NCBI GenBank assembly: GCA_031280685.1
Contig: JAITGM010000011.1
Location: 1-64,000, forward strand
DNA: 64,000 nt
Origin: Christensenellaceae bacterium
GTDB lineage: Bacteria > Bacillota > Clostridia > Christensenellales > UBA1750
Direction of reading: 5' to 3'
The position numbers were made by a program, and so were the translations under genes. Each line of letters opens with the position of its first letter. Positions within the stretch are counted from its first letter, which is position 1. Shown piece after piece: positions 1-14,162 of this stretch. Under the pieces are notes generated by a model that had not been told where the DNA came from, ran no database searches, and worked only from the letters and a program-made list of their open reading frames with translations.

Positions 1-395
1 GCGTCCGCGCTGCGCAAGATCGCGCCGGCGTTGCCCGGATCCTGCACCCCGTCGAGCGCCACCAGCGGGAGAGTGACCTGCCCGGCCTGCGGAATGCGCG
101 CGCTGCAAAGGAGCGGCTGAGGGCTCTTGGTTTCGGCCACGGCTTCGAGCACGCGCCCATGCACAGCGTAGGCGGCCTTTGCCCTGGCGCACAGGGCCCG
201 GGCAGGCTCGCTTCCCTCAAAACCGCTGAGGATCAGCGCGGTTTCAATGGCAAGGCCGGCCTTCAGCGCCTCTGCGCAGAGCTTTTCGCCCTCGATCAGG
301 AAGCTGCCGCCGCTTTTGCGGCCCTTCGCGCCTTGCAGCGCCCGCATTTCCTGCGCGACCGGGTTTTTTGTGCTTTCAATCAGCTTCAGGCTCAT
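1..395 (-). CDS. TrmH/SpoU-family RNA methyltransferase (3' part beyond the window)
   Basis: This is the N-terminal 131 residues of a SpoU-class (SPOUT fold) RNA 2'-O-ribose methyltransferase, which transfers a methyl group from SAM to rRNA or tRNA. The N-terminal substrate-binding part (IESTKNPVAQEMRAL, then FLIEGEKLCAEAL) is followed at the window edge by the family motif LDGVQDPGNAGAILRSADA, the start of the knotted catalytic domain. I chose the ATG at 393-395 because AGGGG lies six bases upstream; an in-frame ATG at 399-401 would leave no spacing. It follows rplT on the same strand after a terminator, the usual place for this gene in Clostridia. The exact rRNA target cannot be read. Confidence 0.9.
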   Translation of the reverse strand, partial: MSLKLIESTKNPVAQEMRALQGAKGRKSGGSFLIEGEKLCAEALKAGLAIETALILSGFEGSEPARALCARAKAAYAVHGRVLEAVAETKSPQPLLCSARIPQAGQVTLPLVALDGVQDPGNAGAILRSAD

Positions 396-416
396 GCTCA
401 TCCCCTCAAAAGATGA

Positions 417-455
417 AAAACGGAGCCGCCTCGCTTGGGGCGGCCCCGTTTTTTC
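417..455 (-). terminator. Terminator after rplT
   Basis: Eleven-base arms at 420-430 and 439-449 (CGGAGCCGCC/GGCGGCCCCG, one wobble) end on the minus strand in a T run. It closes the infC-rpmI-rplT operon ahead of the methyltransferase gene. Because the other side is also T-rich it could act in both directions. Confidence 0.8.
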
Positions 456-463
456 CGCTTTGC

Positions 464-820
464 TCAGGCCAGCTTGGCCTTCGCGGTTTCGACCACCTTT
501 TCGAAGGCGCCCGGGTTGTTTACTGCCAAATCGGCCAGGATCTTGCGGTTGACGATCACGCCAGAAAGCTTCAGGCCGTTGATAAAGCGGCTGTAAGACA
601 GGCCGTAGGGGCGAACCGCCGCGTTGATGCGGGCGATCCACAGCCTGCGGAAATCGCGCTTGCGCAGGCGGCGTCCGACGTAAGCGTAGCGCAGCGAGCG
701 GGCGACCTGCTCCGTCGCAGCCCTGTATTGCTTGGATTTTGCGCCAAAGTAGCCCTTCGCAAGCTTAAAAACCTTCCTGCGGCGCTTCTTGGCGTTTACT
801 GACATCTTGATTCTTGCCAT
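464..820 (-). CDS. rplT: 50S ribosomal protein L20
   Basis: L20 is needed for early assembly of the large ribosomal subunit and in many bacteria represses its own operon. The 118-residue product has the usual length, the basic start [20 protein letters not shown] and the core [14 protein letters not shown] typical of the family. It is the last gene of infC-rpmI-rplT, 26 bases after rpmI, with an AAGGAGG-type ribosome site. Its product is the expected ligand for the leader upstream of infC, though that regulation is inferred from other Firmicutes. Confidence 0.98.
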
Positions 821-846
821 TTTCGTAAGCCTCCTTCAAAAAGGTT

Positions 847-1044
847 TTATTGGTAGGGCAGCATTTTTTTGACGGTCTTCGCCTCGGCGCTGGAAACCAG
901 GCCGGGCTTGCGCAGATGGCGGGTGCGCTTGGTAGTCTTCAGGTGCGGCTGGTGGGATGTGAACGCCTTGCCGCGCTTGATCTTGCCGGAAGCCGTAAAG
1001 CTGAAGCGCTTTGCCGCGCCGCGATGCGATTTTTGCTTAGGCAT
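847..1044 (-). CDS. rpmI: 50S ribosomal protein L35
   Basis: Small basic protein of the large ribosomal subunit. The 65 residues carry the family start MPKQKSHRGAAKRF and the motif GKIKRGKAFTSH, matching L35 along the whole length. It lies between infC and rplT, the invariant order of this operon, with an AGGAGG ribosome site just upstream. Confidence 0.97.
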   Translation of the reverse strand: MPKQKSHRGAAKRFSFTASGKIKRGKAFTSHQPHLKTTKRTRHLRKPGLVSSAEAKTVKKMLPYQ

Positions 1045-1080
1045 GAGAATCCTCCTCCCTGAACGTGAAATAATATGATC

Positions 1081-1590
1081 TTACTTGTCTTTCTTCGGCG
1101 AAAGCATCATGGTCATGGTGCGGCCTTCCGTAGCCGGGGCGCGATCCATCACCGCATACTCCTTAACCCTATCGAAAAACGAGTTCATCACCTGCAGACC
1201 GATTTCGGAGTGCGTCACCATCCTGCCCCTAAAGCGGATGGAGGCTTTGATTTTGTCGCCCTCCTGCAGGAACTTGATCGCCTCGCGCACGCGCACGTTC
1301 ATGTCGTGCTCCTCAATCGTTGCGGAAAGGCGAACCTCTTTGAGCACAATGACCTTTTGATTCTTCCGCGCTTCCCTGTCGCGCTTGGACTGCTCGTAGC
1401 GGTACTTGCCATAATCCATCAGCTTGCAGACCGGCGGCTTGGCAGTCGGCGCGATCTTGACCAAGTCAAGCTCCTTTTCTTCGGCAAGGCCCATGGCCTG
1501 CGCAAGCGGCATCACACCAAGCTGCTCGCCCTCTGCGCCGATGAGGCGAACCTCTCTGTCGCGAATCTCCTCATTGATCATCATGTTCAT
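1081..1590 (-). CDS. infC: Translation initiation factor IF-3
   Basis: IF-3 binds the 30S subunit, keeps it apart from 50S and checks the start codon-initiator tRNA pairing. The protein shows the N-terminal motif INEEIRDREVRLIG, the SIRFRGRMVTHSEIG region of the C-terminal domain and the usual length (169 residues). The open frame runs further upstream, but that part overlaps the leader terminator at 1640-1664, so it cannot be the start. ATG 1588-1590 is chosen, with ATGs at 1584 and 1581 as alternatives. The only strong ribosome site (GGAGGTG, 1604-1610) is 14-15 bases from this ATG, unusually far. infC in many bacteria uses rare start codons, but none sits at better spacing here. Confidence 0.95.
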   Translation of the reverse strand: MNMMINEEIRDREVRLIGAEGEQLGVMPLAQAMGLAEEKELDLVKIAPTAKPPVCKLMDYGKYRYEQSKRDREARKNQKVIVLKEVRLSATIEEHDMNVRVREAIKFLQEGDKIKASIRFRGRMVTHSEIGLQVMNSFFDRVKEYAVMDRAPATEGRTMTMMLSPKKDK

Positions 1591-1639
1591 GTTTGCTGCA
1601 GTGCACCTCCAAAATTTTCGCCTTTCGGCTTTTGCCCGC

Positions 1640-1781
1640 AAAAAAACGGGCTCGCAAGAGCCCGCTCATCAAAACATAGCCTGGATGCGGAGGACAAAGG
1701 CCCAAAACCACAACCGAGGAAAGAATTGGCTACCCTGTTGGCCATGCCACAGGGTGAGAAGCGGGCGCTTCTGCTTTCAAC
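1640..1781 (-). ncRNA. infC operon leader RNA with attenuator terminator
   Basis: About 140 bases lie between the promoter and the infC ribosome site. The leader includes a pairing element (CACCCTGT with ACAGGGT) around 1741-1757 and ends in a clean intrinsic terminator: stem CGGGCTC/GAGCCCG (1647-1664), tetraloop GCAA, then seven T on the minus strand. This layout is that of the L20/IF-3-type autoregulatory leaders known from Firmicutes, where excess L20 promotes termination. Assignment to a specific RNA family would need a covariance-model search. Confidence 0.65.
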
Positions 1782-1787
1782 AAAGTT

Positions 1788-1815
1788 ATTATACCCCATT
1801 TTTGAGCGCTGTCAA
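1788..1815 (-). promoter_or_regulatory. Consensus housekeeping promoter of infC-rpmI-rplT
   Basis: On the minus strand TTGACA (1810-1815) and TATAAT (1788-1793) are separated by 16 bases. Both hexamers match the sigma-70/sigma-A consensus perfectly, as expected for a strongly expressed translation operon. Confidence 0.85.
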
Positions 1816-1904
1816 GCAAAAAGAAGGAAAAAACGCACCAGCGGGCATTTCCCCTGCGCTTGGGGGCGCGCGGCGCTGCGCACCGTTCTTGGGCGGCGTC
1901 TTTT

Positions 1905-3308
1905 TTAGGCCCTCGGCGCGCCTCCGGCGCGCGGGCGCAGGCCGGCTGCGATCTCTTTCACCATTCGGATTGCGGAAATCCCCTTTTCGTCCTCCATATG
2001 CGAAACGAAATAGAGCACGATGCCAAGGCGCGTCAGGCAGGAAACGAAAACGGCCACCTTATACGGATCGGCCAGCAGGCCAAAGAGATCAAAGCCATGT
2101 TCGAGCACCAGCGCGCGGGTGCCCTCAATCAGCACGCCGCCTACGAGCGTACCAAGGAAGGTTCCGCAAAGATTCGCCATGCACGAAAACACCGCGATGT
2201 AGGATGGGCGCAGGTCATCCGGCGAATGGCTGAGCTGCATGGCCGTGACAACCAGGTTCGCCGCGGACCAGAACGTCGCGCCGACGACGTTGTGCAGCAG
2301 CATCGGACAAAAGCTGCCCGGCACCGAGAAGAGGAAGAAGCCCGGCGTCAGCGCCGCAACGATGCAGGAAACCCACAAAACCGGCTTGGAGCCATAACGA
2401 TCAAAGACCCTGCCCCACCTGGAAACGACCAAAAAGGTCGTCAGCGCCGAAGCGATCTGGCTCGAGAGCGTCACCTGGGTGAAGTTCAGGCCCATTTCGT
2501 CCAAGGCATAGCGGTTGAGGTAGGGCCCGCAGATGTTGGCGGTGAAGCACCAGGCGGTCCAAAACAGCGTCAAGCGCACGAAAGGCTTATCTTGCAGAAT
2601 CTTCTTAAAAGTCGGCAGAATTTTCACCTTCTGGGGCGGCTGGGAGTAGACTTCCTTCACGAAGACGAAGGAGGCCATATCCAGCGTGCCAAAGATGCCG
2701 CCCAGCACGAAGACCAGCGAATACCCAGGGAAGCCGGGGATCGAGTCAAGCAGGAAAGCGATGAGCAGGCCAAAGAGCGTGCCAATGAGGGAATTGATGC
2801 TGTCGCGCAGCGAAAACCAGCGCCCGCGGATGCGCATGGGCAGCAGGTCAGAAAGCCAGGGGAACCACGAAACGTTGATGACCGCCCCGCCGAAGGAAGA
2901 GATGCCCACCAGGAAGATCACCGACCAGAGCCTGAGCCAGACCGGATCCATGGGCACAAAATAGGGTACCAGACCCACGAGGATCCAGAGCAGGCGCGAG
3001 GTCAGCCCCAGGGTCAGCATATATTTTTTGCGCTTTTGGGTCCTGCTCACGAGCGAGGCGAAGGGGATCTGCAAAAGCGTCGCCGCGAACGGGATGCCGC
3101 TGAGCAGGCCGAAGCTCAAGTCGTTGGCCTTCAGGGCGCCGGCGAAGCCCGCCAGCGCGGGGCCATTGGTGACAATGCCGCAGAGATTGCCGAAGATGTT
3201 GGCCACGATGATGGCGTGCATGCTGCGGCGAATATCGGGCAGCAGGCGCGCTTCGTCATACAGTGCCGAGAATGGAGACCGAATGAGGCTGCGAAAGCGG
3301 CTCAACAC
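1905..3308 (-). CDS. MFS transporter
   Basis: A 467-residue integral membrane protein with about twelve hydrophobic segments in two halves joined by a central loop near residues 210-240 (EVYSQPPQKVKILPTFKKIL). Between helices 2 and 3 is a basic loop (SRTQKRKKYML) like the MFS A-motif, and the second half has the similar RWGRVFDRYGSKPVL. The substrate is unknown. The start is GTG 3306-3308, seven to eight bases after AGGGG. It stands alone, about 90 bases upstream of the infC promoter on the same strand. A substrate cannot be inferred from the neighbours. Confidence 0.85.
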   Translation of the reverse strand: MLSRFRSLIRSPFSALYDEARLLPDIRRSMHAIIVANIFGNLCGIVTNGPALAGFAGALKANDLSFGLLSGIPFAATLLQIPFASLVSRTQKRKKYMLTLGLTSRLLWILVGLVPYFVPMDPVWLRLWSVIFLVGISSFGGAVINVSWFPWLSDLLPMRIRGRWFSLRDSINSLIGTLFGLLIAFLLDSIPGFPGYSLVFVLGGIFGTLDMASFVFVKEVYSQPPQKVKILPTFKKILQDKPFVRLTLFWTAWCFTANICGPYLNRYALDEMGLNFTQVTLSSQIASALTTFLVVSRWGRVFDRYGSKPVLWVSCIVAALTPGFFLFSVPGSFCPMLLHNVVGATFWSAANLVVTAMQLSHSPDDLRPSYIAVFSCMANLCGTFLGTLVGGVLIEGTRALVLEHGFDLFGLLADPYKVAVFVSCLTRLGIVLYFVSHMEDEKGISAIRMVKEIAAGLRPRAGGAPRA

Positions 3309-3339
3309 GTTCTTTCCCCTCTGCCTTCATCAAAGATGG

Positions 3340-3406
3340 GGCGCGCCAGCGCGCCGGGCCCCGAAACACACCCAATTAATCATACTCAAGCACGGCGCAA
3401 AGTCAA
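3340..3406 (-). promoter_or_regulatory. MFS gene promoter with downstream palindrome
   Basis: TTGACT (3401-3406) and TATGAT (3379-3384) on the minus strand are 16 bases apart. Between the expected start site and the ribosome site lies a 16-base palindrome, GGCGCGCCAGCGCGCC (3340-3355), which could be an operator or a tight hairpin. Confidence 0.55.
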
Positions 3407-3450
3407 CCGAAATCTTTCATGAAATCGCAGTTTTTCTTCGCCCTGCGAAG

Positions 3451-10596: not shown

Positions 10597-11045
10597 AAAT
10601 AGCCTAAAACGCTCTTTTTGCGCAATTTCGGCCCTCTTGCGATTGCCGCCTCACTCGCGCCGCTCAAGCCCCCCGACGTGGCGGCCGATAGGCCCTGCCA
10701 ATACCATTCGGCGCCGCAGTCGCAGCGCGGCACCTCGAATTGTATCCCCGTGGGCCAAGCGGAAGCAAAGCTTCCTGGGCGAGCGCCAGCTCGCCGGCCA
10801 CGCCACAGCGTGGCCCTTGGCCCCCCGCGCGGCTAACGGCGAGCGCCAGCGAGCAAAGTGCCGAGCTCTTTTGAGCCAAGGCGAAAATGGGCTCGGCGAT
10901 TCACGCCTGCGTAGCAGGCGCGTTGGCCGCCCTGCGCGCGAGCGTAGCGAGCGCGCCCATACCCATCGCAAGGCAAACAAACCGACCGCGCAGGGGCTTC
11001 ATCGGCCAGCGAAGTCCTCCGCAATCCCCCAAAAAGAAAGGCGGT
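10597..11045. other. Non-coding spacer with clustered short hairpins
   Basis: No gene is supported in this 449-base stretch. It contains at least five small inverted repeats at 10761-10775 (GGAAGC/GCTTCC), 10778-10795 (GGCGAGC/GCTCGCC), 10796-10815 (GGCCACGC/GCGTGGCC), 10905-10919 (GCCTGC/GCAGGC) and 10934-10956 (GCGCGC arms). Each is centred on a GCnnAGC-like core. Open frames across it on either strand are compositional artefacts. Confidence 0.7.
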
Positions 11046-12236
11046 TTGGCCCAAAAAGTGCAGCCCGCTTCGCAAGAAAAACCCTTTGCGCGCATTCCCG
11101 CGCTGGATGGGATTCGTTCCCTTCTCATGCTCCTGCTGATGCTCTTCCATTTTTGGCAGCAGGACTGGATTTCTATGCCCTCGCTCGTTCTCGGCCCCTT
11201 CCACATCAACGGCTACCTCGTCGCCGCTCTTGGCTTTCTTGGCGTGGAGGTTCTCTGCGTGCTGAGCGGCTTTTTGCTCTATCTCCCCTTGGCCGGCGGC
11301 GAAAAGCTGCGGCCCGGCGCCTTCTTTTTTAAGCGCTTCGTGCGCATTTATCCAAGCTACTTGCTCGCGCTGCTCGTCTGCGCCATCTTCCCCCTTTCGC
11401 CCTTCCCGAGCCTTCAGGATCTTCTTTTTCAGCTTGGCGGGCATCTTCTTTGCCTCAATTTGCATCCGGCCTTCTTTTTTGACCGATTTAACGGCACGTT
11501 CTGGTTCATTTCGCTGGAGTTTTGCTTCACACTGCTCTTCCCTCTGCTGGTGCCCGCCATGCGCAAGGCCCCGGGGCTGACGCTATTTTTCTGCGCCCTG
11601 TTTTCCATCCTCTTCCGCGCGTGGATGCTGCGTCTCTCGGGCAACACCAGGCTTTGGCAAAATCAGCTCCCGGCGATGCTCGACTGCTTCGTCGCAGGCA
11701 TGTTCACGGCCTATGCCGTCCAGCTCTGCAAGGAACTGCCGCGCCGCTTCGGCGGCGCCCTGTTCTTCGCGGGTGTGCTGCTCTTTGCCTACGTCTTTAT
11801 CGCAATCGGCTTCCACCTCGGCCAGCAGGTCGGCAATACGTCGGGCACGCAATACTACCAGTCGCTCTACCGCCCGCTGACCATCCTGGCCGGCTGCCTA
11901 ATGGTCGGCGGCGCCGCGCTCGCGCCAAAAGCCTTCCAAAGCGCGCTCGGCTGCAGGTTCTTCGCCTTCGTCGCTTCAATTTCCTATAATCTCTTCCTTT
12001 GGCACCAGTGGATTTCGGTCAAGATCAAGGCCTGGTTTTGGGGCTTCACGCCGGGCATGCTGCCCAATGAGTATGCTGCCGCGCACCCCGGCTGGGAGTT
12101 TTTTCATCTGCTCGTCTCCTTCGCCCTGTCGTTTCTGCTGGCCAGCGCCGTGACCTTCCTGGTCGAAAGGCCGCTCATCCGCCTTTTACGAAGCCAAACG
12201 GCCAGAAAAAGCGGTGCTGCGGCCTTGCCATTTTGA
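11046..12236 (+). CDS. Acyltransferase 3 (OafA/YrhL-type) membrane protein
   Basis: An integral membrane protein of about 396 residues with roughly ten hydrophobic helices that acylates exported carbohydrates or wall glycans. It starts with the family signature IPALDGIRSLLMLLLMLFHF, including the Arg and the catalytic His, then GFLGVEVLCVLSGFLLYLP, FKRFVRIYPSY and NGTFWFISLEF. The start is uncertain: TTG 11046 and GTG 11058 both lie near AAAGGCGG, and homology begins about 15 residues later. The frame is open further upstream, but that part crosses the hairpin-rich spacer. The acceptor is unknown. It precedes the lipoprotein gene by 21 bases. Confidence 0.85.
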   Translation: MAQKVQPASQEKPFARIPALDGIRSLLMLLLMLFHFWQQDWISMPSLVLGPFHINGYLVAALGFLGVEVLCVLSGFLLYLPLAGGEKLRPGAFFFKRFVRIYPSYLLALLVCAIFPLSPFPSLQDLLFQLGGHLLCLNLHPAFFFDRFNGTFWFISLEFCFTLLFPLLVPAMRKAPGLTLFFCALFSILFRAWMLRLSGNTRLWQNQLPAMLDCFVAGMFTAYAVQLCKELPRRFGGALFFAGVLLFAYVFIAIGFHLGQQVGNTSGTQYYQSLYRPLTILAGCLMVGGAALAPKAFQSALGCRFFAFVASISYNLFLWHQWISVKIKAWFWGFTPGMLPNEYAAAHPGWEFFHLLVSFALSFLLASAVTFLVERPLIRLLRSQTARKSGAAALPF

Positions 12237-12257
12237 GTTTTTAAGGAGGAAGCCCGT

Positions 12258-13106
12258 ATGAGAACGCGCCGCCTTGCCCTTTTCCTCGCCGCATTGCTGG
12301 CGCTCAGCCTTGCGGGCTGCGGAAGGCTGCCCTTTCTGCCAAAAGAGCGCATCGACCAGCCCCTTTTTGTGTTTTTGGGCGAGGAAGCCTTCGCCGAGGG
12401 CTTCGAGGCGAACTTCCCCGTCGAGGTTGCGGTCAGCTACACGAGCGTGGCGGGCGAGGAGCGCCGCGTTTCGAGCGACCCTCAGGTCATCCGCGATGTG
12501 TTTAACGCCCTGAAAGAAATCGTCGTTCTGAGCGAAGAAGGTCCCGCCCACACCGACGATTACCTCGACTACAGCTTTAGCTTCGCAGACGGCGGAGGCC
12601 TGGGTTTTAGCTTCCAATCGGGCATGCTTCATCGCATGGAAACGCTCTATGCGCTTTCGGGCATGGCCGAGCTTGAAAATGCTCTTCCGCCGCCCTGGGT
12701 TTTGCCCTGACCAATCGAGGGGCTGACCATCCTCGAGTTTACGGGCTATTCCGAGCTTGAGGGCGAGCCTGGGAATCCCCTCCCCCTCCTCGTGCGGGGC
12801 GGCCATGGGCAAAGCGACGGCCCCGACCGAGCGGAACTGCGGAGCTCCGGCGATCCGGCCCTCATCCGCGCCGTGGTCGAAGCGCTTCAAGGCCTGCGGA
12901 TCTCGCGCGTCTCCGAAACGCCCAAGGACGCGTCGGGCGAGGTTCTGGCTCTGTCCCTGCTCATGCCCGGCGATAAGGAACTTCTCTTTGGCTTTCGTGA
13001 CGGCTGCTTTTGCCAGGCTCGAAACTCCTTCAGCTATGAAATCGAGGGTTTTGCGCCCCTTTTGGCGGCCTACGAAGCCCTTCCTCTCGAAAAGGGTTCC
13101 CCGTAG
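12258..13106 (+). pseudogene. Two-repeat lipoprotein gene interrupted by one in-frame TGA
   Basis: The first part (12258-12710, 150 codons) has AAGGAGG, a signal peptide and lipobox LSLAGC. A TGA at 12708-12710 stops it, but the same frame continues without further stops to 13106. The two sides are related: SSDPQVIRDVFNAL...GLGFSFQSG before the stop and SSGDPALIRAVVEAL...LLFGFRDG after it. The undisturbed protein would therefore be a 282-residue lipoprotein with a duplicated domain. No ribosome site with a good start is seen for the second half. A 6-bp stem (TCGAGG/CCTCGA) begins five bases after the TGA. This may be a nonsense mutation, an assembly error or recoding. No known family was recognised. 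Confidence 0.6.
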
Positions 13107-13222
13107 AGCCGTTTTCACGCCTTGCGCGAAGGGGGCCCGCCGCGCTATAGTTGTGTTGCCGGGCAGCTAAGCGACGCCGAGGCAAAAAGCGCACGAAGAG
13201 CGCAAAAAAGGAGAAATCGACC

Positions 13223-13487: not shown

Positions 13488-14162
13488 TTGAACAAGCAGG
13501 TTGCGGAAAACCCTGCCACAAAAAACCGCGACGCCTTCACGCCTCTGGTGGCCGTGGCGTCCCTGATGGTGGCAAGCTACTTAACTGCCAATCTCATGGC
13601 GGTCAAGCTCATTTCTGTCTTTGGTCTCACCCTTTTTGACGCGGGCACCTTAACCTTCCCCCTCTCGTACATGCTGGGCGACGTGCTCACCGAGGTTTGG
13701 GGCTTCCAGACCGCCAAAAAGGTGATCTGGCTCAGCTTCTTTTGCAATGCCTTTCTGGTCTTCTTCACGGCGCTGGGCCTTCTTTTGCCCTCGCCCCCCT
13801 CCATGGAGGAAATCTCGCGGGCCTACGCGCTGCTCTTTGGCTATGTGCCGCGCATCGTGCTGGCTTCCTTGGTCGGCTTCCTTGGGGGCGAGCTTTCCAA
13901 CGCCTACGTGATGGTTAGGATCAAGGCCCTGACAAAGGGGCGCCTGCTGTGGCTGCGCACCATCGGCTCCTCGATGGTGGGCTATGTTTTTGATACCGTA
14001 CTCTTCGTTCTGCTCGCCTTCGCGGGCACGGTGAGCGCGAAGGAGCTCCTCGTCATGATCGGCGCGCAATACGCCATGAAGCTCTGCATCGAGGCGCTCG
14101 CCGGCACGCCGCTGGCCTACGCGGCCATCCGCTATTTGAAGAGAAGGGTCGGGCTTTCATGA
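13488..14162 (+). CDS. yhhQ: YhhQ/VUT-family queuosine-precursor transporter
   Basis: A 224-residue membrane protein of the VUT (DUF165) family, whose E. coli member imports preQ0 and preQ1. It has about six helices and the family stretches TANLMAVKLISVFG, FPLSYMLGDVLTEVWGF and the charged GGELSNAYVMVRIK segment. The start is TTG 13488-13490 after TAGGAGG. The next gene, a radical SAM enzyme resembling queuine lyase, overlaps by four bases (ATGA), so the pair is translationally coupled. This suggests import of queuine or a related 7-deazaguanine base. Confidence 0.85.
   Translation: MNKQVAENPATKNRDAFTPLVAVASLMVASYLTANLMAVKLISVFGLTLFDAGTLTFPLSYMLGDVLTEVWGFQTAKKVIWLSFFCNAFLVFFTALGLLLPSPPSMEEISRAYALLFGYVPRIVLASLVGFLGGELSNAYVMVRIKALTKGRLLWLRTIGSSMVGYVFDTVLFVLLAFAGTVSAKELLVMIGAQYAMKLCIEALAGTPLAYAAIRYLKRRVGLS

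Follow-up and report, generated by a model that had tools for sequence, protein, structure and literature searches.

In a stretch of 64,000 nucleotides from a Christensenellaceae genome (contig JAITGM010000011.1), which we refer to in the following as the window, a lipoprotein gene is interrupted by a single in-frame TGA. We consider it probable, at roughly 0.8, that this TGA is an ordinary and recent nonsense mutation, which results in a truncated, one-domain lipoprotein. According to this reading, the product of the ancestral gene would have been secreted and lipid-anchored, with a small alpha/beta domain in two tandem copies, and the stop codon would have arisen in the linker between the two copies. 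Translation from position 12258 to the stop at 12708–12710 would then yield a lipoprotein of 150 residues in which the first domain is complete, while the second domain would not be made in useful amounts. The cost of the mutation may be low, and it may be tolerated, since the linker hit by the stop was predicted with low confidence and is probably flexible, and since domain 1 remains whole. That the population truly carries this mutation, that the mutation is recent, and that the shortened protein is both produced and able to fold are inferences on our part.

Bacterial genes interrupted by nonsense mutations (pseudogenes) have a single in-frame stop and a downstream part that is still recognisable. 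The gene described here is similar to bacterial pseudogenes in general in both of these respects; it differs from them in that the stop falls in a linker and spares a complete domain, so that the product may still work. The case also shows, step by step, how a TGA within a frame can be tested as a candidate for recoding, by way of the recoding machinery, the tRNAs, the genetic code, the hairpin and the relatives.

The interrupted reading frame

Re-reading the frame confirmed that, as stated in an initial interpretation made from the sequence alone (the sequence-only reading), the 283 codons from the ATG at 12258 to the TAG at 13104–13106 (terminal stop included) are broken by the TGA at 12708–12710 and by no other internal stop (Table 1). 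Near its N-terminus, the product contains the sequence LSLAGC, which we take to be a lipobox motif and hence a lipobox-type signal.

Table 1. Features of the interrupted lipoprotein gene, with positions in the window
Feature	Positions	Strand	Basis
Strong ribosome-binding site, AAGGAGG, preceding the start codon of the lipoprotein	12243–12249	+	Sequence
Predicted translated part: lipoprotein signal and first domain, 150 codons	12258–12707	+	Domain homologues L034, L035, L038
First copy of the domain of about 115 residues, predicted compact alpha/beta fold	12357–12701	+	Homologues, model
In-frame TGA, next base C; in the linker past the last helix of domain 1	12708–12710	+	Sequence, model
Inverted repeat of 6 bp (of 7 bp as folded RNA, one pair being G-U), judged incidental	12715–12736	+	
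Second copy of the domain, 3' of the stop, codon usage still coding-like	12735–13091	+	Profile, codon usage
TAG, end of the ancestral frame	13104–13106	+	Sequence

Codon usage in this frame scored 0.424 bits per codon before the TGA and 0.346 after it, with a dip over the linker, and the other frames scored lower. As the 131 codons 3' of the TGA keep both the frame and the codon usage, the interruption looks recent, although undecayed codon usage past the stop would also fit a second half that is still translated. The probability that a random frame of the same composition stays open for 131 codons is 0.015, a value to be taken as a rough guide only. An antisense frame of 310 codons (12186–13118, minus strand) spans the whole lipoprotein gene; codon usage on that strand scores at best 0.11 and 0.05 bits per codon, less than on the plus strand, which is therefore favoured.

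A model of domain 1 built from four sequences has a mean pLDDT of 91.1, dropping to about 58–72 past the last helix, where the TGA sits. Because the stop is located past this helix and within the low-pLDDT stretch, the truncated product should retain one complete domain. The whole-protein model, computed from a single sequence, reached a pLDDT of 34 and was set aside. No solved structure resembling domain 1 was found at a Foldseek E of 0.001 or a VIA Z of 5 (best Z 3.3, with an rmsd of 3.9 over 80 aligned residues). Designed proteins, the best match of a sequence profile against the PDB (E 0.016), were judged to be a chance result. One could do no more than guess that the domain, lipid-anchored and extracytoplasmic, serves in binding or sensing.

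Two domain copies and their relatives

The first and second halves of the frame matched each other directly by BLASTP with an E of 0.003 (a single pair). In addition, a profile of three homologues (L034, L035 and L038), from which the window's own first domain was left out, scored the second half at 36.4 bits; none of 2000 shuffled sequences scored as high, and 1121 of them gave any score at all. These results bear out the proposal that the stretches flanking the TGA are two related repeats of one domain.

The further proposal, that both repeats belonged to one ancestral protein with the stop in its linker, is supported by a gene from another family of the same order (L083:883–1857, genome G093), in which the signal, domain 1, linker and domain 2 lie in one frame without a stop. 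Only a distant two-domain relative (26% identical), the L083 protein resembles the window gene in having a lipoprotein-type signal and the same domain twice, in collinear arrangement; it differs in being stop-free between the domains and in having a longer linker. When domains were compared between the two proteins, no shuffle scored as high as the matching pairs (0 of 500 both for domain 1 with domain 1 and for domain 2 with domain 2), while the scores of the cross pairs, which were weaker, were reached by 1 of 500 and by 93 of 500 shuffles. As L083 has both copies in one frame and these pair collinearly with those of the window, a two-domain protein appears to be ancestral, and the window gene probably descends from one.

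A gene interrupted by a nonsense mutation is expected to have an intact relative with sense codons at the position of the stop, and the linker of L083 consists of sense codons all through. Comparison at the TGA position, which the sequence-only reading had proposed for orthologues, gave a sense residue opposite the TGA (coded as X) in all four MAFFT settings, tyrosine in three and cysteine in one; tryptophan stood opposite when the TGA itself was entered as W, an entry that biases that alignment. L034, L035 and L038 contain the first domain and no stop.

Homologues of the first half at E < 1e-10 were detected in two of the 395 other genomes searched in the order (G191, with two loci, and G260), and two further genomes matched it near E 0.001–0.002; the profile search at E 0.001 matched six of the 395, some of them weakly. 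In two Christensenellaceae lipoproteins, from JAISKB010000006.1 (L078, the L034 protein) and JAJDHD010000090.1 (L077, the L035 protein), the first domain is 44–48% identical to that of the window. Unlike the window gene, these have the domain only once, and what follows it towards the C-terminus is unrelated. The C-terminal parts to which the domain is joined differ among L034, L038 and L035, the first two being two loci of one genome, and that of L035 resembles PsbP_2 (PF18933), slightly below the cut-off. A small lipoprotein domain without a Pfam match above the cut-off recurs, in single and in double copy, in one bacterial order.

Searches among genomes of the order and in genome contigs gave no close orthologue of the whole gene: a contig scan with the single protein returned 32 stretches, none of them a relative, and the count for a scan with profile A2 was 2 of 75 stretches. 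The phage records searched gave no match. The lipoprotein gene is fast-evolving. Weak matches, including a candidate paralogue in the same genome (L002, E 0.0468), covered for the most part the signal-peptide end of the query and were rejected; apart from the window's own, none of the genomes concerned gave a match at E 0.001 when searched with the profile. This also applies to G020, whose weak match (L005, E 0.0072) has a TGA inside. One of the six genomes matched in the profile search, G045 (L085), has a radical-SAM-like protein there, which was taken for chance.

Neither the lipoprotein gene nor the acyltransferase gene just upstream (10887–12236) is matched in any of the family's other 10 genomes, so that synteny is unusable.

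Sequence error, readthrough and the downstream hairpin

There is a modest chance, well below that of a nonsense mutation, that the gene is intact in the population and that the TGA reflects an incorrect base or one carried by a minority, due to a consensus error of the draft assembly or to strain-level polymorphism. The genome is a draft of 50 contigs, 97% complete, in which a stretch with an essential gene is missing (see below); the sequence 3' of the stop has not decayed, and a single changed base would suffice. However, nothing in the sequence hints at an error, and assemblies with good coverage seldom contain errors of a single base.

Considerably less probable is that the linker UGA-C serves as a leaky or programmed stop, at which most ribosomes would terminate to give a one-domain form and some would read on via a near-cognate tRNA to give a two-domain form, so that one gene would produce both lipoproteins with no special tRNA or RNA structure. 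Although the second half retains its frame and codon usage, the present analysis provides no positive support for readthrough, and any recent nonsense mutation would look identical; moreover, no relative was found with a stop at the same place. The base following the TGA is C, which is rare in this position here (of 16 other TGA stops in the window, one has it), and this is compatible both with a stop that has not been under selection as such and with a leaky one. PMC5289835 names UGA as the stop that leaks most in bacteria and eukaryotes, describes U in the +4 position as lowering readthrough, and cites the effect of +4 C for yeast.

No specialised tRNA that could promote readthrough was detected. 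None of the 43 tRNA matches in the genome, all of which were examined, has the anticodon tca, and the sole tRNA-Trp has the anticodon cca, with a G at position 24 (counted by hand). In the ARAGORN drawing, its anticodon stem consists of five pairs, with a G-U pair at the top. A four-pair (unpinned) anticodon stem of tRNA-Trp has been tied to bacteria that may read UGA (PMC13092985); as the stem is fully paired to the top here, the unpinned form described in that source is absent.

The 6-bp stem to which the sequence-only reading had drawn attention as a possible sign of recoding is present downstream of the TGA (TCGAGG at 12715–12720, CCTCGA at 12731–12736), but its frequency and folding do not favour such a role. 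Perfect 6-bp stems with loops of 3–12 bases start at 374 positions in the window, and 5.6% of all window positions have one starting 3–15 bases downstream. Folded alone, the stem has a z of -1.74 (14 of 200 shuffles were as stable), while three longer stretches gave -1.61, -0.06 and +0.53, and in two of the three the 7-bp RNA stem yields to other pairings. The hairpin is unremarkable and not clearly better than chance, and we judged it to be incidental.

That a separate second gene starts past the TGA is very improbable: no ATG, GTG or TTG occurs until 28 codons past it, and the GTG found there, at 12792, although opening a frame of 104 codons, has no ribosome-binding site or signal peptide and would remove the front of the second domain, and L083 contains both domains in one protein.

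Selenocysteine and the genetic code

The in-frame TGA with a stem close by had raised the option that 12708–12710 encodes selenocysteine, for which the sequence-only reading had suggested a genome search; this search leaves the option with hardly any probability. Using the models TIGR00474 (SelA) and TIGR00475 (SelB), we found neither selA nor selB over the cut-off in any of the 11 genomes of the family, including that of the window, the assembly of which is 97% complete; among 14 control genomes, TIGR00474 was over the cut-off in one and TIGR00475 in two. Below the cut-off, the selB model matches all 11 family and all 14 control genomes, presumably through other translation GTPases, and the selA model matches four genomes of another genus. 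The best tRNA-Sec match in the window's genome reaches 45.7 bits against a cut-off of 47 and is, according to ARAGORN, tRNA-Ser(tga). Furthermore, the stem near the TGA is ordinary, and the TGA lies in a linker, where the single-domain homologues have no conserved cysteine. The residue opposite the TGA, which would be cysteine in homologues of a selenoprotein, is tyrosine in three of the four alignment settings and cysteine in one, and where a bSECIS hairpin would be expected, a stem of 7 bp is present.

In four of the 11 family genomes (loci L013–L016), all without selA or selB over the cut-off, the Rfam tRNA-Sec model passes its own cut-off of 47 (47.4 to 49.5 bits) on what ARAGORN identifies in each case as tRNA-Ser(tga). 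This constitutes a trap for automatic selenocysteine calls.

Genome-wide reassignment of TGA following loss of release factor 2 was briefly favoured, as prfB is over the cut-off in 57 of the 61 genomes searched and is lacking in that of the window (97% complete), the other three being G016, G036 and G059 (51, 80 and 71% complete). The only release-factor match in the window's assembly (L088; 298 bits against a cut-off of 370) looks like prfA. However, secA, located a short distance upstream of prfB in L119, L120 and L121, has no match in this assembly either, as determined in a search of this genome alone, without a positive-control genome. In L120 the order, named from reading the translations, is secA, a phosphatase-like gene, prfB, a membrane protein and tsaD, and L119, from the same genus, runs from the end of secA through a phosphatase-like gene to prfB and onward. 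secA is essential in bacteria. With this neighbour also missing, the absence of prfB probably reflects a single unassembled stretch that contains both genes rather than gene loss, and the assembly gap became the better reading.

Consistent with this, prfB is over the cut-off in the sole other member of the genus, and TGA terminates 16 of the 44 other window genes selected for examination. The TrpRS, MreB and sodium symporter genes in the window have near-complete Pfam matches and no in-frame TGA, and MreB itself ends in TGA, with its match nearly complete before the stop. A code of the table 4 type (TGA=Trp) would call for a tRNA-Trp(UCA) or an unpinned tRNA-Trp(CCA), and neither is among the 43 tRNA matches. 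We therefore regard reassignment as highly implausible. The initial alternative of nonsense mutation or recoding is thereby narrowed: the nonsense mutation remains, together with a sequence error, whereas selenocysteine and reassignment are not supported, there being no selA or selB over the cut-off in the 11 family genomes and no UCA anticodon among the tRNA matches, and TGA serving as a normal stop.

Elsewhere in the window, the frames at 368–3422 have a third-position GC of about 0.55, compared with mostly 0.7–0.8 in the remainder, and the longest of them (1860–3422) has no Pfam match at 1e-5. The TGA that ends the Vut_1 transporter gene overlaps the ATG of the next gene (ATGA, 14159–14162).
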